The notes under the pieces are model-generated. The model ran no database searches. It was not told where the DNA came from and saw only the letters and a program-made list of their open reading frames with translations. A stretch of DNA of 38,015 nucleotides from a virus: IMG/VR virus record IMGVR_UViG_3300036466_000089, positions 1-38,015 of that record; one strand, written 5' to 3'. Below, piece after piece: positions 24,341 to 35,674 of the stretch (positions are counted from its first letter, which is position 1; every line of letters starts with the position of its first letter). A program made the translations under genes and the position numbers.

Positions 24341-27300
24341 ATGGCAGAGAACCAACAACCTACAAAGGACCAGTTGCTAACAGCACTTGAGAAAGCACAC
24401 CTTTCAGGGGATACCCAGGGCGCCAAGGAGTTGGCCGCCTGGCACAATGAGCTTTACGGACCAAAGCCAGAACAAGAACAGCCTGGACTTATTGACCGGG
24501 CTAAGTCTTTTTTCACTTCCGATGAACAGCCTGAAGTAGATGGCTTCACCGGCGCAATGCAGAAGGCGCCACCAGAGTACGATAGCTTTGTAACCGCCAC
24601 TGGTAAAGCTGTTCGCAATGTTCCTGAGCGTTTTCAGCAATCAGCAGCCGGCCTCATTCAGATGCTTGGCGAGGATATGGGGCAGGAACGTGAGCGCCAT
24701 ATCGCTATTGTTTCTAACCGTCTTGGTATTACGCCAGGCGATTACAAGTTGCTGGCATGGGCTGGAAATGAAGGTCTTGTTGATCCTAAGACACCTATTC
24801 CTGAAGCGCTTGATTACATTAAGCGCAATGTGACTGGCTCACTCAATGAGCAGCAACTGAAGCAGGTTGCTGATATGGGCATTATCAACCCTGATGAGAT
24901 AGCCGGCTTTGCCAAATATTGGCGTGAAGAAACACAGAAAACCATGGAGCCAGTAAACGCTGAGCCAGGAAGCGCCGCTTATTATGGTAGTGCGGCGATC
25001 GGTAGCGTTGCTGAAATGGGGCCTGCATTGCTTGGCAGTATCCTAACTCGCAATCCAAGTGTAGGTATGCGCTTGATGGCCGGCCAGGTAGGTGGTCAAT
25101 CGTATGCTGAAGGCCGTGAGCAAGGATTATCGCCTGATGAAGCGCAATTCTACGCAGTAGCCAATGCGGCAGCAGAAGCAATCCCTGAGTATATTCCGCT
25201 TAGTGTGATTATGAAGCCAGGCCAGAACTTCTTTAAGCGCGTGCTTAAAGGTGCCTTGGCAGAATCAGCCCAGGAAGTGCTAACCGAGGCCATTCAAACC
25301 GGACTTGATCAGCAGATGATTAACCCGGATATGACTTGGGCAGAAGCGCGCCAGCGCCTAATTGATGCCGGTATTATCGGTGGCCTTGCTGGTCCTATGA
25401 TGAGCGGTGTTGCTCATCCAGTCGTTAAGGCTCAAGAGAAGATTGACCAGGCACTTAATGCGCCAGAGCGCCAGCTTGGTATTGCGCTTAATCAGCAGGT
25501 TGAGGCGACTCAGTTTGCACCGGCAGAGCAGGCAGCAGCGCAGGCTTTTGATCCAGCAAATGCACAGCAGCAACAGCAGCCAGTACAGCGTAAAAGCATG
25601 GCAGAGCTTGTGGCTGAAAAGCTTGAGCAGCGTGGGGTTAAGCCGGCGCCAGTGGTTGACTACGCACCGAAGCAGCAAGCAATGCCTGAGAATATTGATG
25701 TGCCGCTTGAGGTTCCTACTCAGGAAGTGGTTGTTGAAGAACAAGCTAAGGAGCAGGTCAAAGATGAGCCCAAGCAAGAAGCGCCAACTGAAGAACAAGC
25801 GAAAGATGAAGCGCAACCAACGGATGCGGCGCCAGTCTATGGCGAAGGGGCTGAGAGAGTTCAACACACAACCAAGCGCGGAAAGGAATTAACTGGCGTC
25901 ATTGATCGTGAAATGACACTGGACCAGGCCAAAGAGATCGACCCTTACGCCTTCAAAAAGGATGGTGGTGTTTTCATTCGTGATAACCGCATTCAGGAGT
26001 ACAACCAGAAGCGGAGTGAAGAAAATGCAAGAGTGGATACAGCAGGCGTTGAACGACAAGGTGATCAGCAGCAGCGAAGCCAAGAGCCTGGACGAGTACC
26101 TGAGCCAGCACAGCAACAGCAGCAACCTAGTGATATTGCCTCAGAGCCTGGAAAGCGCGGCTCAGAGAATATTCCTATGGGAGATACCGCTGAGCGAATT
26201 GACGATGCACTGACCCAAGATGATCTTGCCAAGCTAAGGGATCAGGTAAAAGCGAAAATAAAAGAGCAGGGAACAGTTACTGACGACCGCCTTGAGGAAA
26301 AGTTGCGAGGAATTGAAGCGGCCATTGGTGAGCAAGGTGGCAGTATAGGTAGTGGCCGAAGGGTAGAAACTGAAAGCGGTGATATGTTGGAAACTATCGG
26401 GCAAATAAGAAGTGATATGCCAGATGGCGCCATGGTTACTGTTAGAAAGAATCCCGACACAATAGGCGAGCGAAAGTTAAGAATTAGTGTTGGTGAGTTG
26501 AGAGGTTTAATTAACCAGGAGCAAACCAATGAGCCTACAAGTGTGGAGGCTAAGAAAACTCCAACTGGCATTATCAAAAAAGGCCGCGATGAAAAATACG
26601 ATATTGATGTAGAGCTGCGCAAGGATGGCGAAGGCTACACGATTGTAGATAGCGACCCGAATACCAAAGACAAGCGCATTAGCACCGGCATGGGTGGCGT
26701 TTACAAGAACGATCAGATTCTCAACCGAGAGGGCGAGTTTGTATCGCCTCGCGATATTGTTCAGGCCGGTAGCGCTACTCTTGATAAGCAGCCGTTCAAA
26801 GGCACAAAAGATGAGATGGCGCAGGCCGCAAAGCTTGTTGCTGAGATAGAATATGAAAGAAGCGTAGGCAATAACGCCAGGGTTGAAGAATTAGAGAGCC
26901 AGTTAATCGACCTGGTATCTGGTAGGAGAAAAGCAGATGAACCTGAACAATTGGGCGAGCAAGGCGCAGAAACACTGGCAGGAGTTCCAGCCGAACAAGT
27001 ACCAGGCACTGAAGAAACAGGGGACGCTGGACTTGGCGCTGAAGCAGGCAGCAGAACAGACGCTGGCAGAAGTGAGCGAGTTGGAGAATCAGGGCTATCA
27101 ACCGGACGAGGCGTTCCAGATGGTCAGGGAGAATTACCTGTTTCCACCAGCGGAGCAGAGCGAACCGGACGAGGCGAGCAACGCGGCACCGATGTACCAG
27201 GAAGCGTTGCAGATGAAAAGCCGAGTGATGCAGGCCGACCAGTATCAAGAGGGGATGCAGAGTTAATCCAGGCTGAGGAAAAGGCGGCAGAAGAAGCGCC

Positions 27301-30300
27301 GGCGCCAGTTGGTGAAACAACTCAGCAGGCAGTTAGTGCAGATAATCGCCCGGCCAAGATGTTTACCATTACGCCAGATATGGGAATTGGTGAAGGTGGC
27401 CAGAAAACTAAATTCAAGAACAACCTTGAAGCAATCAAGATCCTGAAGTCTCTTGAGGCTGAAGGGCGCCAGGCAACGCCAGAAGAACAGCAAGCGCTTG
27501 CGCGTTATGTTGGTTGGGGCGGTATTCCTCAAGCGTTCTATGGTGATGCAGGTAAAGTATCAAAAGGATGGGAGAAAGAGGCGGCACAGCTTAAAGAGTT
27601 ACTTACCGATGCTGAGTATGATGCAGCGCGCCGAAGCACGCAGGATGCCCACTACACAAGCCAGGAGATTGTTACTTCAATCTGGAAGGCTGTTAAGGAT
27701 ATGGGTTTTACTGGTGGCCGAGTGCTTGAGCCTTCAGTTGGTACTGGTAACTTTTTAGGGATGATGCCGGCAGGTGTTCGAGGAAAAAGCCAGATCACCG
27801 GCGTAGAGCTTGATCATATTACAGGCGGGATTGCTTCACACCTTTACCCAGGCGCAAACATTAAAACGCCAATGGGCTTTCAAGACTTCACTATGCCTGA
27901 TGGTTACTTTGATCTGGCAATAGGGAACCCGCCATTTGGGAGCCAGAAGCTATATGACGGTAAGCGCAAAGACTTATCTAAGTTCAGCATTCACAACTAC
28001 TTCTTTGCAAAAAGCCTGGATGGCCTGAAGCCTGGCGGCGTACTTGCAATGGTTGTATCTAACAGCCTTATGGATGGTCAAAGCAATCAGGCAGCGCGTG
28101 AGTACATGGCTAATCGTGCAGACTTCATTGGCGCGGTACGATTGCCTAATAACGCATTCCTGAAGAATGCAGGCACAGAAGTTACCACTGACATTGTTTT
28201 CCTTCAGAAGCGAGAGGAAGGCACGCCGCGTAAAGGTCCTTCATGGAAGCGTACTGAATCAGTGAAAGACGCCAACGGCATTGAAACACCACTGAATGAA
28301 TATTTTGTAAAGAATCCCGACATGATGCTTGGTGAATGGGGTGCATACGGCTCAATGTATGGACCTAATGACCCGGCGCTTGTTGCGCGTGAAGGTCAGG
28401 ACACTGGCGCATTGTTGCGTGAGGCATTGGCTAAGTTACCAAAAGGGATTATGGCAGAGTCAAAAGCGGCGCCGGCAAAAGAAGAAGTGAAGCTATCCAC
28501 CAGCGTTGATAACGTCAAAGTTGGTAGCATGTTCATTGATGGCGGCAAGGTGATGGTTCGCCAGGATAATGAGCTTGGTAGTATTCAGGCTGAGCCGGTT
28601 GAGTTTGCCAGCGACAAAGCGCGCCAGCGCGTTGAGGGCATGATCAAGGTTCGTGATGTGTTCACAGACTTGAGGAAGGCCCAGCTTACTGAAGGCGTAA
28701 AAGATGCTGCGCTTGACGCGTTGCGCACGCGTCTTAATCGTGAGTATGACGCGTTTGTTAAGGCGCATGGTCCAATAAACTCAGATGCCAACAAGCGCTT
28801 ATTCCGTGATGATCCTACCTGGCCTCAGATTGCAGCATTGGAAGAATCGTTCGATAAAGGCATTACGCCTGCAATGGCAAAGAAAACCGGCGAGCAATCG
28901 CGTAAGCCAAGCGCAAGCAAGGCGGCAATTTTCTTTAAGCGCACTCAGTCACCATATAAAGCGCCAACCAAAGCGGCAACTGCCAAGGATGCAATGGCGG
29001 CAAGCCTATCAGAGTATGGCGCCATTGATATGGATTACATGGCGAAGCTTTACAACAAAACACCAGGATATATTGCCAATGAGCTTGGTGATCTTGTGTA
29101 TGAGGTTGAGCCTGGCCGATTTGAAACGCGTGACCAGTATCTGAGCGGCAATGTTAAGCAGAAGCTTTCCCAGGCAAGGCAGCTTGCCAAGGCAGACAGC
29201 AAGTATAAGCGCAACGTCCAGGCTCTTGAGGCGGTACAGCCTGAAGATATTGAGGCCGTTGATATTGATGTTAAGCCAGGCGCTCATTGGTTGCCGCGTG
29301 AAGATATGAAGTCATTTGTTGATCATGTGCTTGGCAATGAAAGCGGCAAGGCTGTTTATATCCCTACCAATGCAAAATGGTCTATTGATGGCGTACCAAC
29401 TGAGGCGGCGCGTTCGCGTTGGGGTACTGACCGAGTTCAGGTTACTGACATTGTTGCAGCAGCTGCAAACCAAAAGCAGATTGTTGTGCGTGACCGTATT
29501 GACGAGAACACAACAAGAGTAAACGAAGCAGCTACCAATGCTGCTAATGAAAAGGTTGAGCGATTAAAAGCTGAGTTTCGCCGTTGGGTATGGCAGGACG
29601 ATGCGCGCCGTAGTCGGTTGACCAGAATCTATAACGACACATTTAACACCGATCGCTTGCGTGAGTTTGATGGTTCGCACCTTACTTTCCCTGGAAAGGT
29701 CAGTGACGACATTATCAAGTTACGCCCACACCAAGCCAATGCAGTTTGGCGTATCGTGCAGTCTGGCACAACCTTGCTTGATCACGTTGTAGGTGCTGGT
29801 AAGACGTTCACTATGATTGCTGGCGCTATGGAAATGCGCCGCATGGGCAGAGCTAAAAAGCCTATGTTTGTTGTTCCTAATCACCTTGTTGGTCAGTGGG
29901 CAGAGGACTTCACCAAGCTTTACCCTGGCGCTAATGTGCTGGCGGCAACCAAGAAAGACTTTGAGAAAGGCAACCGCAAGCGCCTATTTGCGCGTATTGC
30001 CACCGGTGATTGGGATGCTGTTATTGTGGCTCACTCATCATTCGGTAAAGTGGAAATGGATAAGGAGTTCCAGGAGCGATTTATCAATCAGCAGATCCGT
30101 GACATTGATGAGGCTATCCAAAATATCCGGGCCCAGGATGGGCAGAAGTCACGAAGCATTAAGCAGATTGAGAAGCAGAAAGAGCGCCTTCAGGAAAAGC
30201 TGAAGAAGCTGTTTGATGCAGAAAACAAGGATGACAACCTAACCTTTGGTGAGCTTGGTGTTGATGCTTTATTCCTGGATGAAGCGCATGAGTTTAAAAA

Positions 30301-33300
30301 CCTTGGCTTTGCCACCAGTATGACCCGCGTTGCTGGTCTTGGTAATCCGCAAGGAAGCCAGAAGGCGGCAGACCTGTTTATGAAAACTCAGTTTGTCCTG
30401 GAAAAGACTGGTGGCAATAACGTGGTGTTTGCTACCGGTACGCCGATCAGTAATACCATGGCGGAAATGTACACCATGCAGCGCTATCTGGATTATCAGA
30501 CGCTACAGGACCAAGGTATTGCACACTTTGACGCGTGGGCGCGCATGTATGGCGAAGTTGTTACTGATTGGGAATTATCACCTTCAGGAAGTTACAAGCT
30601 AAATAGCCGCTTCAGTAAGTTTGTGAATATCCCTGAGCTCATGCAGCGCTACCTATCGTTTGGTGATGTTATCAACCGTGATGACATTAACCGACAGTTG
30701 GCCGCCCAGGGTAAGCGCCTACCAGTACCAAAGGTTAAAGGCGGCAAGCCTAAGAATGTTGTGGTTAATCGCAGTGATGATCAGGCCGCCTATATCGGCG
30801 AACCTATCACCGATGAGAATGGCCGCGAGTCATACCCGGAAGGTAGCCTTGTTTGGCGCGCTGAGCACTTACCTAAAAAGCCTGAAAAGGGCGCGGATAA
30901 CATGCTGAAGATTATGAGTGACGCCAGAAAGGCAGCACTTGATATGCGCATGATTGATCCGGCCATGTATGGTGACTACGAAGGCAGCAAGGTAAACCAG
31001 GCGGCAGACAACATTAAGCGCATTTACGACCAGTGGAGTGCAGACAAAGGCGCGCAACTGGTATTCATTGACCTGAGTACACCGAAAGGAGCTAAAGCAA
31101 AAGAGGCGGCAAGAATCCGCGATCTGATTGAAAAAGCAGACAATGGTGATGAGCGCGCACAGGATGAGCTCGACAAGATGAGCCCTGATGAATTATCAGC
31201 GCTTGACGGTGATTTCAGTGTTTACGATGACTTGCGCCAAAAGCTGATCAATAAGGGCATTCCTGAGCAGGAGATAGCATTTATTCACGATGCCAATACA
31301 GAGCTTCAGAAAGAAGAATTGTTTGGCAAGGTTCGTAGTGGCCGTATCCGTGTGCTATTTGGCTCTACCGCCAAGATGGGTGCAGGCATGAACGTGCAAG
31401 ATCGTCTTGTTGCACTACACCACATGGATGCACCATGGCGACCTTCAGACCTTGAGCAGCGTGAAGGCCGTATTATTCGCCAGGGTAACAAGTTGTATGA
31501 GCGCGATCCTGATGGGTTTGAGGTTGAAATTAATCGCTATGCAACCAAGCAAACGCTTGATAGCCGTATGTGGCAGACCATTGAAACCAAGGCGCGATTC
31601 ATTGAGCAGGTTCGCAAGGGCAATACTAAGACACGAGAAATTGAGGACGTTGGCGGCGAGGCAAGTAATGCAGCTGAAATGAAAGCAGCCTCAAGTGGTA
31701 ATCCGCTTATCCTGGAAGAAATGGACTTGCGTCAGAAAATCAGAAAGCTTGAACAGCTTGAAGATGAGCATGACCGCGAGCAGTTCCGTATTCGTGACCA
31801 GGTTCGCCGCCTGAAACTACGCATTGAAACCGGCAAGGATAGAATGCTGAAGTTTACGCGTGATGCCAAAAAAGCAGAAAAAGCGCCAAAAGACTTCTCT
31901 ATCACAATTAACAGCGGAAAGTACGACAAGCACAAGGAGGCTGGTCAGGCATTGCTGGCGGCAGCAAATAAGATGGCTGATGCAGGGCAGGAAACAAAGG
32001 CTATTGGCGAGTATGCCGGCTTTAAGTTGCGCCTGGATAATATCAGCGGTGCCGAGTTCGTGATCACCATAGAGGGTGAGCAGGAATATCAGGTAGACAT
32101 TCCAGATATTGCTGAAACTGATCCTACCGGTTTAGCTATGCGAATTACCAACACAGTGAAGCGCATTAGTGCAGATGCCAAGAATGAAGCTGAGCTTATC
32201 AAGCAAGCTGAGCGAGATATACCAGACCTTGAAGGGCAGATTGCTGATTGGTCACAGGCTGATGAGCTCGCAAAGGTTAAGGCGCGCCATGCCTTGGTTA
32301 TTGCAGAGCTGAAACCAAAGAACAAGGACCAGGAGGAGATTGAACAGGACGGTACAAGCGCCATGATGTATAACGCTGGCGCTGATGTTCCAATGCCTAA
32401 CTGGCGTCCAACATATCGCCAGGCTGGCGTGCCAAAGCGCCCTGAAGGTGATGAGTTTGCTATTGGCGATCGTCAAGTTAAGTTGAAGCCAGAGGAACAA
32501 CCAACGCGCCGCGAGGGTGTTCGCGTTATGGTTGAGGATGTTATAGGTCCAAGACTTTACCAGGGAAAGGTAAAAGGCAAGTCAAAGCTTGGCTTCTACC
32601 GCAAGAATAACAGTGAAGTTCGCGTTGCCAATTACGATGATGTTGAGGTTATGGCGCATGAAATGGCGCACTATCTTGATATGCACTACCGCTACAACAA
32701 GCGCTTTACTAGGGCATACAAAGATACCAAGTATCGTGATGAGGTTTCCGGCCTGAGCTACACCAGTCAAAAGAACCTGAAGTACAAGGAAGGCTTTGCT
32801 GAGTTTGTGCGCCTATGGCTTACAAACTATGCAGAGGCAAAGGCGGCGGCTCCATTGTTTACTCAACGCTTTGAGCAAGTGCTCGCAGAGGATTCAACAC
32901 TCAATAAGAAGATGGTTAAGCTTCAGGATGAAATGCACCGGTGGTACCTACAAGGTGCGCGTGCTCAGTTGCGTGCCAAGTCTGGTAAAGAGTTAAGCCA
33001 GTCTCAGCAGATCATTCAGTACATGCAGTCATATCCACTTGAGCGCTATCGCCAGGAAGTGATTGATAAGATCCATGCAGCCAAGGTTGTTGAGCGCACA
33101 CTTCATGGTGAGGTTCGTGATGCGGCATTAAGCCCATTCAAGCAATTCCAGCTTATAAATGGTGCAGAGTCGTTACATGAGGCAATCCTGAAAGATGGCA
33201 CGCCTTCACTTGCTGAAGATGGAACCTTTGAGTTTAACGGAAAGGGGCTTAACCAGGTGTTTTGGCCGGTATCAAAACATGGTTGGAAGCGTTTTGACCT

Positions 33301-35674
33301 GCTTATGGATTACTTCAAGGCTCGCCGGGCCAATGAGCTTATGAAGCAGGGCCGTGAAAGGCTGTTCACAAAGCAAGAGATTGAGGCCGGGTTAAAGCTT
33401 GGTGTTACATACCCTGAGTTCCGTGATGTGTTCAAGGAATATCAGGAGTTCAACAAGCGAATGCTGGACTTCTACGAGCAGATGGGCCTGATTGATGGGA
33501 AGCAGAAGCAAGCCTTTGCTGATGCCAACAAAAACTATGTACCATTCCACCGGGTAATAGAACGCCTTGAAGATGGTGATCAGGCTGGAACAACGTCAAT
33601 CGGCAAGCGCCTGAGTGGTGGCACTCAGAACGTGCGTGACATTGCTGAAAACATTGTTGAGGGCCTTTACTCAAATATCCGGGCGGCATTGATTGCCAGG
33701 GCCAAGCAGACGCTATACCGGGACATTATGACTAGCCAGGATGGTTCCTTGTTTGCAGTTAAGCTATCGCCAGATAGCAAGCTGGTTAAGGTTGAACAAA
33801 CTCAGATGGCGGCAAAAATTGCTGAAGCCATGGCTGATGTTGGCCTAACTGTAAGCAAAGATGGAATGATTATGGCCGGCGATCCTGATGCGCAGATCAC
33901 TGATGTTGATGATATTGCCCAGGCCCTTGAGTCTAACCCTGATCTGCTTAACTTCTGGACCTTTGGGCACAAGCCAACGACAGCAGAAACATACGTTGAT
34001 AGTGCCATCATTGATGGTAAGCGTACCTGGTTTGAGGTTCGCAATCCGTTGCTGGTGGATATGCTAACAGGTATGAGAGGCTTTAAGTCTGGCGCGTTGC
34101 TTAATGCCATGTTCCGCGTGAAGAACCTGCAAACTCGCACTGTAACGTCAATGCTTCAGTTCCTTGGTCCAAACGCTGTGCGCGATACGCTGAGCGCCTT
34201 TGTGATCAGTAAAAACAAGTTCATTCCTGTATGGGATACCTTGATTGGTATGGGGCACGCCATATTCCACACCAAGCTTTACCGTGAGTTTCGTTTGCAT
34301 GGTGGCGGCTATGGTACCCGTATCGAGGCAAGAACAGAGGAAACCAGAAAGCGCAGGCAGCTTGATCTTCCAAGCCGCAATATGTGGGATACCGCCGCTA
34401 AGTTTTTAGCAGGGTATGACCGCTTTGCTAGTGCATTTGAGTATGGTAGCCGCCTTGGTGATTATCGCCGTGGCCGCCAGGCTGGAAAGAATGCGCTTGA
34501 GGCTGCATGGGAGGCCAGGGAAGTTGCAACAGACTTTAGCAAGATGGGGCGCAATGAGTTGTGGGCCAAGTTCCTTCGTACCGTTCCGTTTATGAATGCC
34601 GGCATTCAGGGCCTGGACAAAACAGCGCGAGAGATATTTGAATTGCGCGGTGAAATGAAGGGTAGCAACCTGGCAAAACTTGATGATGCTAAGGTGCGAT
34701 TCCTGGCTGCTGGTGGCGTGCTCACTCTTATGACAGTGATCTTGTGGTTGCTGAATGAGGATGATGACCGGTACCAGGCATTGACGCCAGACCAAAAGGC
34801 GCGCTTCTGGTGGATCTTCCTTCCTGGTGCAGAGAAGCCTCTTAAAATTCCGCGTCCATACGATATAGGGCATTTGTTCGCAACCATACCAGAAGTTAGC
34901 CTTGACTATATCAAGGAGCGTGATGGTAAAGAGGCAGCGCAGACGCTGGCATGGACCTTTGCTAATACGCTTGGTGTTGGTGATTACCCTGGCATATTCC
35001 AGCCAATGATTGAGGTGGCCAGGAATAAGAAGTTTACAGGCGCGCCTATCGTCCCTGAAAGGTTGATGCACGTTCCTAATGAGTATCAATTCACTGATCG
35101 CACGCCGCAGCTGTACCGCAATCTTGGTGAAGCGCTTGGAGTGTCACCATTGGTGGCAGAGCATTACATGAAAGGTTACTTGCGTTACGTTGAGGCGTAT
35201 ATCTCAGATGGAAGTGAAGCCTTGCTATGGAATGAAAAAGAGTGGGGGCCGCGTCCATTCGTTAAAGAACCGATTGACTACCTAACCTATCAATTCCAGG
35301 GGCAGCGTGTTCCTTATCGAACAAAATGGACTGAAGGTTATTTTGAACTCAAGAAAAAGGCAGCCGGCGCCAAGTCTGCATTTGAACTACTGACCGCACA
35401 GGCAATACGCGATCAGCAGCCAATGAAAGACTTTTCAGCCGACAAAGTTAACCAGTTGCTTATCAGCATGGATAACGCCTTTAGACAGATTGATGGCGCA
35501 TTCAAGGACCAGGAAACTGTGCTTGCAGCAATCAAGTACAACCCGGACCTAACCAGGGATGAGAAGGAAAGGAGAATAGAAAATTGGTACCAGCAGAAGA
35601 ACAACGCTTTAGCGCAGTTCTATGACCAGGCCAATAAGGCATTGGAGCAAGTTGAAAGCGAGCTTTCCCAATAG
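24341..35674 (+). CDS. Giant polyvalent protein, 3,777 residues: ejection-like N-terminus, N6-adenine methylase, SF2 helicase, zincin, membrane-associated C-terminus
   Basis: Domains by approximate residue: 1-380 ejection-like with hydrophobic segments (about 210-235 and 340-361); 383-620 and 866-976 low-complexity linkers; 1000-1065 with ALARYVGWGGIP; 1130-1293 methylase with PSVGTGNF and NPPFG (N1196); 1792-2400 SF2 helicase with VVGAGKT (1816-1822), DEAH (1980-1983), ATGTPISN and QREGRIIRQGN; 2773-2777 zincin HEMAH; about 2970-3777 a part like the LPD38 region with TM near 3453-3470. The methylase-helicase core resembles phage P1 DarB and other polyvalent proteins. Its place after two ejection genes equals that of P22 gp16, so it may be injected to shield incoming DNA from host defence; this is inference. 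ATG 24341 follows GAGGCGGGG. Confidence 0.88.
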   Translation: MAENQQPTKDQLLTALEKAHLSGDTQGAKELAAWHNELYGPKPEQEQPGLIDRAKSFFTSDEQPEVDGFTGAMQKAPPEYDSFVTATGKAVRNVPERFQQSAAGLIQMLGEDMGQERERHIAIVSNRLGITPGDYKLLAWAGNEGLVDPKTPIPEALDYIKRNVTGSLNEQQLKQVADMGIINPDEIAGFAKYWREETQKTMEPVNAEPGSAAYYGSAAIGSVAEMGPALLGSILTRNPSVGMRLMAGQVGGQSYAEGREQGLSPDEAQFYAVANAAAEAIPEYIPLSVIMKPGQNFFKRVLKGALAESAQEVLTEAIQTGLDQQMINPDMTWAEARQRLIDAGIIGGLAGPMMSGVAHPVVKAQEKIDQALNAPERQLGIALNQQVEATQFAPAEQAAAQAFDPANAQQQQQPVQRKSMAELVAEKLEQRGVKPAPVVDYAPKQQAMPENIDVPLEVPTQEVVVEEQAKEQVKDEPKQEAPTEEQAKDEAQPTDAAPVYGEGAERVQHTTKRGKELTGVIDREMTLDQAKEIDPYAFKKDGGVFIRDNRIQEYNQKRSEENARVDTAGVERQGDQQQRSQEPGRVPEPAQQQQQPSDIASEPGKRGSENIPMGDTAERIDDALTQDDLAKLRDQVKAKIKEQGTVTDDRLEEKLRGIEAAIGEQGGSIGSGRRVETESGDMLETIGQIRSDMPDGAMVTVRKNPDTIGERKLRISVGELRGLINQEQTNEPTSVEAKKTPTGIIKKGRDEKYDIDVELRKDGEGYTIVDSDPNTKDKRISTGMGGVYKNDQILNREGEFVSPRDIVQAGSATLDKQPFKGTKDEMAQAAKLVAEIEYERSVGNNARVEELESQLIDLVSGRRKADEPEQLGEQGAETLAGVPAEQVPGTEETGDAGLGAEAGSRTDAGRSERVGESGLSTGRGVPDGQGELPVSTSGAERTGRGEQRGTDVPGSVADEKPSDAGRPVSRGDAELIQAEEKAAEEAPAPVGETTQQAVSADNRPAKMFTITPDMGIGEGGQKTKFKNNLEAIKILKSLEAEGRQATPEEQQALARYVGWGGIPQAFYGDAGKVSKGWEKEAAQLKELLTDAEYDAARRSTQDAHYTSQEIVTSIWKAVKDMGFTGGRVLEPSVGTGNFLGMMPAGVRGKSQITGVELDHITGGIASHLYPGANIKTPMGFQDFTMPDGYFDLAIGNPPFGSQKLYDGKRKDLSKFSIHNYFFAKSLDGLKPGGVLAMVVSNSLMDGQSNQAAREYMANRADFIGAVRLPNNAFLKNAGTEVTTDIVFLQKREEGTPRKGPSWKRTESVKDANGIETPLNEYFVKNPDMMLGEWGAYGSMYGPNDPALVAREGQDTGALLREALAKLPKGIMAESKAAPAKEEVKLSTSVDNVKVGSMFIDGGKVMVRQDNELGSIQAEPVEFASDKARQRVEGMIKVRDVFTDLRKAQLTEGVKDAALDALRTRLNREYDAFVKAHGPINSDANKRLFRDDPTWPQIAALEESFDKGITPAMAKKTGEQSRKPSASKAAIFFKRTQSPYKAPTKAATAKDAMAASLSEYGAIDMDYMAKLYNKTPGYIANELGDLVYEVEPGRFETRDQYLSGNVKQKLSQARQLAKADSKYKRNVQALEAVQPEDIEAVDIDVKPGAHWLPREDMKSFVDHVLGNESGKAVYIPTNAKWSIDGVPTEAARSRWGTDRVQVTDIVAAAANQKQIVVRDRIDENTTRVNEAATNAANEKVERLKAEFRRWVWQDDARRSRLTRIYNDTFNTDRLREFDGSHLTFPGKVSDDIIKLRPHQANAVWRIVQSGTTLLDHVVGAGKTFTMIAGAMEMRRMGRAKKPMFVVPNHLVGQWAEDFTKLYPGANVLAATKKDFEKGNRKRLFARIATGDWDAVIVAHSSFGKVEMDKEFQERFINQQIRDIDEAIQNIRAQDGQKSRSIKQIEKQKERLQEKLKKLFDAENKDDNLTFGELGVDALFLDEAHEFKNLGFATSMTRVAGLGNPQGSQKAADLFMKTQFVLEKTGGNNVVFATGTPISNTMAEMYTMQRYLDYQTLQDQGIAHFDAWARMYGEVVTDWELSPSGSYKLNSRFSKFVNIPELMQRYLSFGDVINRDDINRQLAAQGKRLPVPKVKGGKPKNVVVNRSDDQAAYIGEPITDENGRESYPEGSLVWRAEHLPKKPEKGADNMLKIMSDARKAALDMRMIDPAMYGDYEGSKVNQAADNIKRIYDQWSADKGAQLVFIDLSTPKGAKAKEAARIRDLIEKADNGDERAQDELDKMSPDELSALDGDFSVYDDLRQKLINKGIPEQEIAFIHDANTELQKEELFGKVRSGRIRVLFGSTAKMGAGMNVQDRLVALHHMDAPWRPSDLEQREGRIIRQGNKLYERDPDGFEVEINRYATKQTLDSRMWQTIETKARFIEQVRKGNTKTREIEDVGGEASNAAEMKAASSGNPLILEEMDLRQKIRKLEQLEDEHDREQFRIRDQVRRLKLRIETGKDRMLKFTRDAKKAEKAPKDFSITINSGKYDKHKEAGQALLAAANKMADAGQETKAIGEYAGFKLRLDNISGAEFVITIEGEQEYQVDIPDIAETDPTGLAMRITNTVKRISADAKNEAELIKQAERDIPDLEGQIADWSQADELAKVKARHALVIAELKPKNKDQEEIEQDGTSAMMYNAGADVPMPNWRPTYRQAGVPKRPEGDEFAIGDRQVKLKPEEQPTRREGVRVMVEDVIGPRLYQGKVKGKSKLGFYRKNNSEVRVANYDDVEVMAHEMAHYLDMHYRYNKRFTRAYKDTKYRDEVSGLSYTSQKNLKYKEGFAEFVRLWLTNYAEAKAAAPLFTQRFEQVLAEDSTLNKKMVKLQDEMHRWYLQGARAQLRAKSGKELSQSQQIIQYMQSYPLERYRQEVIDKIHAAKVVERTLHGEVRDAALSPFKQFQLINGAESLHEAILKDGTPSLAEDGTFEFNGKGLNQVFWPVSKHGWKRFDLLMDYFKARRANELMKQGRERLFTKQEIEAGLKLGVTYPEFRDVFKEYQEFNKRMLDFYEQMGLIDGKQKQAFADANKNYVPFHRVIERLEDGDQAGTTSIGKRLSGGTQNVRDIAENIVEGLYSNIRAALIARAKQTLYRDIMTSQDGSLFAVKLSPDSKLVKVEQTQMAAKIAEAMADVGLTVSKDGMIMAGDPDAQITDVDDIAQALESNPDLLNFWTFGHKPTTAETYVDSAIIDGKRTWFEVRNPLLVDMLTGMRGFKSGALLNAMFRVKNLQTRTVTSMLQFLGPNAVRDTLSAFVISKNKFIPVWDTLIGMGHAIFHTKLYREFRLHGGGYGTRIEARTEETRKRRQLDLPSRNMWDTAAKFLAGYDRFASAFEYGSRLGDYRRGRQAGKNALEAAWEAREVATDFSKMGRNELWAKFLRTVPFMNAGIQGLDKTAREIFELRGEMKGSNLAKLDDAKVRFLAAGGVLTLMTVILWLLNEDDDRYQALTPDQKARFWWIFLPGAEKPLKIPRPYDIGHLFATIPEVSLDYIKERDGKEAAQTLAWTFANTLGVGDYPGIFQPMIEVARNKKFTGAPIVPERLMHVPNEYQFTDRTPQLYRNLGEALGVSPLVAEHYMKGYLRYVEAYISDGSEALLWNEKEWGPRPFVKEPIDYLTYQFQGQRVPYRTKWTEGYFELKKKAAGAKSAFELLTAQAIRDQQPMKDFSADKVNQLLISMDNAFRQIDGAFKDQETVLAAIKYNPDLTRDEKERRIENWYQQKNNALAQFYDQANKALEQVESELSQ
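26025..26213 (+). CDS. Nested small gene 1 in the +1 frame of the giant gene
   Basis: ATG 26025 has GCGGAG (GGAG 26013-26016) 8 bases upstream and opens a 62-residue frame. The product has a plausible fold-like sequence: a helix MQEWIQQALNDKVISSSEAK, then LVILPQSLESAAQRIFLWEI and an end SELTMH. In contrast the giant frame over the same bases is Gln/Glu/Arg/Pro-rich and featureless. Short proteins with an xxAAQRxxLWE-type segment are known to me from phage virion operons, without function. The overlap suggests that the small gene is the older coding layer. Confidence 0.65.
   Translation: MQEWIQQALNDKVISSSEAKSLDEYLSQHSNSSNLVILPQSLESAAQRIFLWEIPLSELTMH
26937..27266 (+). CDS. Nested small gene 2 in the +1 frame of the giant gene
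   Basis: ATG 26937 has TAGGAG (AGGAG 26924-26928) with an ideal 8-base spacer. The 109-residue product starts MNLNNWASKAQKHWQEFQP and continues NKYQALKKQGTLDLALKQAA, ENQGYQPDEAFQMVRENYLF with a Met/Gln-rich tail. The pattern W..KA..HW...P..Y..LK..GTL..AL..AAE..............G....EA...VRE.YLF is one I recall from small, separately annotated phage proteins. The giant frame over these bases is Gly/Glu/Arg/Ser/Thr-rich filler. Function unknown; a helical, acidic protein. Confidence 0.8.
   Translation: MNLNNWASKAQKHWQEFQPNKYQALKKQGTLDLALKQAAEQTLAEVSELENQGYQPDEAFQMVRENYLFPPAEQSEPDEASNAAPMYQEALQMKSRVMQADQYQEGMQS
28716..28732. repeat. ACGCGT-N5-ACGCGT phased pair, site 7
   Basis: Two perfect copies at 28716 and 28727, 11 bp apart, inside the giant gene between methylase and helicase coding parts. 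A further single ACGCGT lies close downstream (28749 area). Confidence 0.65.

Follow-up and report, generated by a model that had tools for sequence, protein, structure and literature searches.

A putative family of small genes nested in the +1 frame of DarB-like methylase-helicase genes of phages and plasmids

Introduction

Phage genes nested out of frame inside other genes are well known, as in phiX174, which has genes inside others, and in lambda, where Rz1 lies inside Rz. The nested frame that is the main subject of this work, n2, resembles these in being a whole gene inside another, on the same strand, in a different frame and with its own start. It differs from them in that its host frame is neutral filler within a giant fusion, and in that plasmids and phages of many hosts share this type of nest.

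The host gene of n2 also has described relatives, in the DarB-like polyvalent methylase-helicase dyad (Iyer et al. 2017, PMC5512222). This dyad has the methylase, the helicase and LPD38 in common with our giant gene, and its described occurrence on plasmids and in phages agrees with the distribution found here; no mention of nested genes was found in the paper as searched. Antirestriction by an injected protein is known for phage P1 DarB (PMC5512222), and by analogy the giant may have this role; P1 darB differs from the giant in starting at about the methylase and in having no overlap. TnpV (PF14198), a small protein of mobile elements, has a weak resemblance to n2, and the n2 of our sequence is not assigned to it. 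In the open literature, to which the search was confined, we found no description of a nested gene in these methylase-helicase genes. Thus nested genes and DarB-like giants are already known, and the n2 nested family is without description in the open literature searched.

Results

Layout of the Giant Gene. The window, that is, the whole 38,015-nucleotide stretch of viral DNA analysed (IMG/VR record IMGVR_UViG_3300036466_000089), contains a giant gene whose frame matched Eco57I (3e-11), ResIII (2e-10), SNF2 (7e-7), Helicase_C (6e-6) and LPD38 (1e-39). It is therefore an adenine methylase fused to an SNF2-type helicase and LPD domains, of the DarB-like polyvalent kind, and its counterpart in VvAW1 is annotated 'DarB-like antirestriction'. 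The coordinates are collected in Table 1. An earlier note on this DNA had placed two small frames, n1 and n2, in the +1 frame of the giant, each with an SD (ribosome-binding) motif 8 bases before its ATG and lying under Q/P/G/E/R filler of the giant frame, and our analysis bore out each of these points. n2 is a complete frame, wholly within the giant and in another register.

Table 1: Features of the giant gene and its nested frames in the window.
Feature	Position	Strand	Remarks
Giant polyvalent gene	24341..35674	+	3,777 codons from ATG 24341; open from TTG 24314
Parts of the giant: N-terminal part, Eco57I-type methylase, SNF2/ResIII helicase, LPD38			Profile matches
Nested gene n1 (putative)	26025..26213	+	62 aa; +1 frame of giant; open from ATG 25962
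Nested gene n2 (putative)	26937..27266	+	109 aa; predicted four-helix core, residues 3-67; +1 frame of giant
Giant-frame linker over n2	26936..27262	+	Low-complexity filler, neutral at the amino-acid level; dNN/dNS 1.01, phase flip
Methylase module start (YVGWGG motif)	27506..27985	+	Fixed landmark, 239 bases 3' of n2 stop
Ribosome-binding site of n1 (GGAG), putative	26013..26016	+	8 bases 5' of n1 ATG
Ribosome-binding site of n2 (AGGAG), putative	26924..26928	+	8 bases 5' of n2 ATG

The window also contains, ending at 26531, the SD and ATG that stand before n2 in close relatives (ccaggagcaaaccaATG). They are followed by about 400 bases with no counterpart in those relatives and then by n2 with a different SD and ATG; it seems that a segment was inserted at the n2 start (window 26517-26936) while n2 was retained.

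Open-Frame Length and Start Signals. To evaluate frame length, the synonymous codons of the giant were shuffled 1,000 times. A +1 frame of at least 109 codons arose in 61.5% of the shuffles; the stretch of n2 stayed free of stops in 14% and that of n1 in 51%, and the real giant has longer +1 frames elsewhere, of 144 and 119 codons. Frame length was accordingly rejected as evidence; as bare open frames n1 and n2 are unremarkable, so the case depends on conservation.

The start signals are conserved. An SD-like motif stands at the right distance in 64 of 68 copies of n2, compared with 932 of 12,463 (7.5%) for the remaining ATGs of these giants (p ~5e-67). The start codon is ATG in 64 copies and GTG in 3; the start of one copy (L102) was aligned to a non-start codon, and this copy was scored as being without SD. 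For n1 the motif set was matched in 8 of 10 relatives.

Selection on n2 and Its Linker. Each nucleotide change was classed by its effect in both frames. For n2, taking 18 independent pairs, the nested-frame dNN/dSN was 0.21 and the giant-frame dNN/dNS was 1.01; in the methylase DNA used as control these values were 0.79 and 0.11, respectively. The rates in the n2 region were 0.242 for SN and 0.052 for NN. After allowing for the giant frame, the nested frame is thus under strong purifying selection (controls, 0.79-0.96), and the giant-frame value of 1.01 means that the linker over n2 is about neutral as protein, apart from avoiding stops. The earlier note had named conservation of the giant frame only as part of the outcome that would speak against its reading, and the pattern found for n2 is the opposite one. 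In addition, of 30 independent pairs, 29 had a higher amino-acid identity in n2 than in the giant frame that shares its DNA.

The position of the changes within the codon agrees with these values. Among near relatives, giant position 1 (position 3 of n2) takes 64% of the substitutions in n2, and giant position 3 takes 17%; upstream, downstream and in the rest of the giant, 87-89% are at position 3, and the fast-changing segment 26214-26936 is less skewed toward third positions. A 40-codon sliding scan of the giant showed a sustained codon-phase flip solely at n2, so that no other sustained flip pointed to further nested genes in this giant; one marginal scan window lies beside the insertion at ~26.5 kb, where there are few aligned codons. 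The conservation, start signals and substitution pattern of n1 and n2 are far beyond chance. By its substitution pattern, its conserved start with an SD of its own and its fixed place just 5' of the methylase motif, n2 is to be regarded as a true protein-coding gene, wholly inside the giant and in its +1 frame.

Relatives in Phages and Viral Contigs. A tblastn search with n2 brought up 21 records, 43-91% identical, from phages of Vibrio, Klebsiella, Pseudomonas, Agrobacterium, Ochrobactrum, Sinorhizobium, Erwinia and Microcystis. n2 was inside the giant wherever the giant was annotated on the right strand, mostly under the label 'DarB-like antirestriction', and its offset to the annotated giant frame was +1 in every one of these loci except that of PBC5. 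Scans with the n2 alignment gave 64 viral-contig and 20 genome-contig loci, nearly all nested; the few that are not lie in chromosomes.

For a sample unbiased by n2, viral loci were ranked on their match to the first 160 residues of the methylase, and the top 80 were taken. All 80 had a +1-frame small gene just 5' of the methylase motif, 3 or 4 of them weakly matched. An n2 match was present in 68 of the 80, between roughly 140 and 750 bases 5' of the motif, always in the +1 frame and never in another. In the remaining 12, an open frame that begins with ATG or GTG and has an SD occupies this place in the +1 register, and it matches a second phage family (A8) or the plasmid family (A7) described below; some of these 12 loci helped to build A8, and the fair evidence for them is the position and SD result, which preceded the A8 profile. 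Loci L213, L227, L208 and L228 were weak against the n2 profile or overall. Such a nested frame is found too in BcepIL02 and in Pseudomonas phages 8P and USP_18.

The non-nested relatives of n2 are a handful of diverged chromosomal loci in several phyla. When 871 genomes from three groups were searched for stand-alone copies, 6 had matches, 3 of these being the group centres. One non-nested copy (L097) shares 69% identity over 78 residues with the nested PEp14 copy, and at least this one, among the few, could have escaped from a giant. Searching for homologues, as the earlier note had proposed, thus revealed a widespread n2 family whose separate copies are few and chromosomal. Its statement that similar proteins occur as stand-alone phage genes did not hold: every copy found in phage or viral sequence has a giant frame over it (PBC5 is a special case), and the plasmid relatives are annotated separately, yet overlap.

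Plasmid Versions and Absences. The methylase-helicase occurs in ~2,000 plasmid records. A plasmid search with an n2-type query (L097) gave no match, and the plasmid relatives surfaced only via the methylase. The nested layout was found on plasmids of Burkholderia, Paraburkholderia, Stenotrophomonas, Pseudomonas and Xanthomonas, where a conserved methylase N-terminus of 35-45 residues is followed by filler over the nested gene and then by the methylase. The nested gene of these plasmids has ~101 codons and an SD, and is in the same position and the same +1 frame as in phages. An L145-type gene is present in 66 plasmid records. In the NCBI annotation, L145, L253, L255 and L256 have the small gene and a shortened methylase, and L257 has the long gene alone. 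The locus is annotated inconsistently across L145 and L253-L257, some records having the long methylase alone or nothing.

One Salmonella and one Campylobacter plasmid had an identical layout. In the latter, C. jejuni plasmid p14991B (L149 4513-4989), a 158-codon +1 frame with SD lies in the SNF2-related gene; this gene has 29.5% GC, and the shuffle P of the frame was 0.003. The methylase is held by 218 Campylobacter plasmid records, and the nest was examined in this one.

Comparison of profiles related the plasmid family firmly to the second phage family (96.5%, E 7e-10) and moderately to n2 (71%, E 4e-5), the direct match of n2 to the second phage family being weak (18%). In the plasmid relatives the nested-frame value was 0.55 and the giant-frame value 1.57, with controls of 0.88 and 0.26, from three divergent pairs. 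No nested gene was present in phage P1 darB, and the profiles found no nest in a Listeria plasmid, a Bradyrhizobium plasmid and two faecal phage contigs; the methylase-helicase therefore does not always need n2.

Predicted Fold of n2. The AlphaFold model of n2 had a pLDDT of ~95 or more over ~70 residues (block pLDDT 91-97 in the first 70), with predicted helices at residues 3-17, 19-28, 31-51 and 56-67 and a loose tail. Searches of solved structures and folds gave no convincing match, and none of the curated functional families fits. TnpV was matched weakly but in constant register by 30 of 43 n2 relatives (best E 2.9e-7); the window n2 scored 14.6 bits, below the curated cut-off of 27, some relatives scoring higher, and membership in TnpV was not accepted.

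All 43 members also match the end of the PHROG 938 'endolysin' profile, and Q8W6J4 of BFVD was the sole significant viral fold match. Both matches apparently arise because, in Sinorhizobium phage PBC5, the upstream frame shifts into n2 before the n2 start, and the endolysin assignment was rejected as an artefact of this frame change. Relative to its relatives PBC5 has one frame change just 5' of n2 (L025 9955-9988), either a sequencing error or a real change, and its annotated upstream protein therefore ends in n2 sequence.

The Nested Gene n1. n1 has fewer relatives, namely, the VvAW1 group, Vibrio phage FGH, Thalassomonas phage BA3 and two more contigs, all in the +1 frame; in BA3 a nested gene is annotated at the n1 site (BA3_0004). 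By the same two-frame classification, the nested and giant values were 0.15 and 0.20 in the Vibrio group and 0.28 and 0.55 in the FGH/BA3 group, so both frames are constrained, unlike at n2. The AlphaFold model is helical and of moderate quality, and a relationship between n1 and n2 was rejected, as their profiles share no similarity. Judged by these comparisons, n1 is a second, rarer nested gene of the N-terminal part of Vibrio-type giants.

Discussion

We consider it likely, for the explanation as a whole, that n2 is dual-coding DNA with an internal start, that it predates an extension of the methylase gene at its 5' end and that its product may have a partner role. Considering that the start signals are conserved, ribosomes very likely initiate independently at the n2 site on the mRNA of the giant, and a helical protein of ~100 residues would be made alongside the giant, probably in excess of it. 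n2 is most likely a small helical protein produced by such internal initiation. That n1 and n2 are accidental open frames in GC-balanced low-complexity DNA, with a coincidental ATG and SD, is hardly credible. Frame length by itself is not significant in the window, given the other long +1 frames; however, the codon-phase flip, the dNN/dSN of n2, the 64 SD motifs and homologues of 40-90% identity that never depart from this frame and place speak against accident, and the substitution pattern already refutes it. A DNA or RNA element (packaging, regulation) conserved in place of a protein is an equally negligible prospect: the synonymous sites of the giant are indeed depressed over n2 and n1, but the changes cluster at n2 third positions, as the SN and NN rates indicate, which an RNA element would not produce. 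Very improbable, too, is that n2 is a C-terminal alternative reached from the giant frame by programmed ribosomal frameshifting without a start of its own, even if its +1 frame follows a translated one and the upstream frame runs into it in the PBC5 record. The ATG (or GTG) and SD are conserved at fixed spacing; the n2 frames of Lastavirus and Pavtokvirus open just 2 codons before the ATG, which leaves almost no room for a shift; and the PBC5 case is a single change in that old record only. The pattern of a frame open from an upstream shift site, with no need of its own start, was thus not what we found.

Taking into account the values of 0.21 and 1.01 and the confident predicted fold, the linker over n2 appears to be a by-product of n2. 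An n2-type gene would be the older element, and the 5' end of the methylase gene would have been extended over it in another frame, giving rise to the filler; that n2 is older than the linker is probable. The reverse order, in which n2 was born in a tolerant methylase linker and the non-nested copies escaped later, is in our opinion unlikely. It would account for nearly all copies being nested and for the likeness of L097 to the PEp14 copy, and disordered linkers do tolerate a second frame; against it, n2 is predicted to be well folded and is constrained under a neutral linker, several phyla have diverged non-nested relatives and the weak TnpV similarity keeps its register. The preferred order, with n2 first, would place the extension before the separation of plasmids and phages and before the addition of the phage ejection part. 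The earlier note had attributed the overlap to overprinting during the fusion of ejection and methylase genes in phages. Its overprinting part stands, with a constrained n2 frame and a neutral linker, and the fusion as cause holds only in part: plasmid forms without an ejection part already overlap, so the fusion is probably not the origin and probably added the ejection module upstream of an existing nest.

The role proposed for n2, as partner or regulator of the methylase-helicase (antirestriction) module, is the weakest step. n2 might well act with the methylase-helicase, at somewhat under even chances, because their linkage is constant in very different elements. Slightly more doubtful is that n2 is a real nested hitchhiker, unrelated to the module and kept since frame-compatible DNA is hard to lose. 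Some non-nested copies without a methylase nearby and the methylase-helicases that lack n2 would fit this; on the other side, linkage was seen in all 80 sampled viral loci and, with the exception of L151, in every proteobacterial and Campylobacter plasmid examined, and it persists despite extensive exchange of the adjoining segments. Between these two in probability, we tentatively entertain a stronger form of the partner role, in which the helical protein would be a standing component of the methylase-helicase machine, its gene nested since before plasmids and phages split, and the linker would exist only by extension across the older gene.

A gene family across many phages and plasmids has mostly been missed by annotation, hidden because annotation programs disallow a gene within a gene; plasmid records display the small gene or the long one, never both. 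The direction of overprinting is testable here, where a far larger protein has its neutral linker over a small one that is constrained and predicted to be folded. The case suggests one way for long disordered linkers of giant fusion proteins to originate, and n2 becomes a candidate partner for a widespread antirestriction module.

Among the records inspected, Pseudomonas phage Itty13 (L003 3905-15163) has its giant unannotated, with three long reverse-strand frames annotated over it. A Pseudidiomarina chromosomal protein of 263 aa (L108 5974-6762, L109) has an n2-like start followed by apparent membrane segments, and its gene adjoins others that resemble the McrC and HsdM restriction parts (putative identities).
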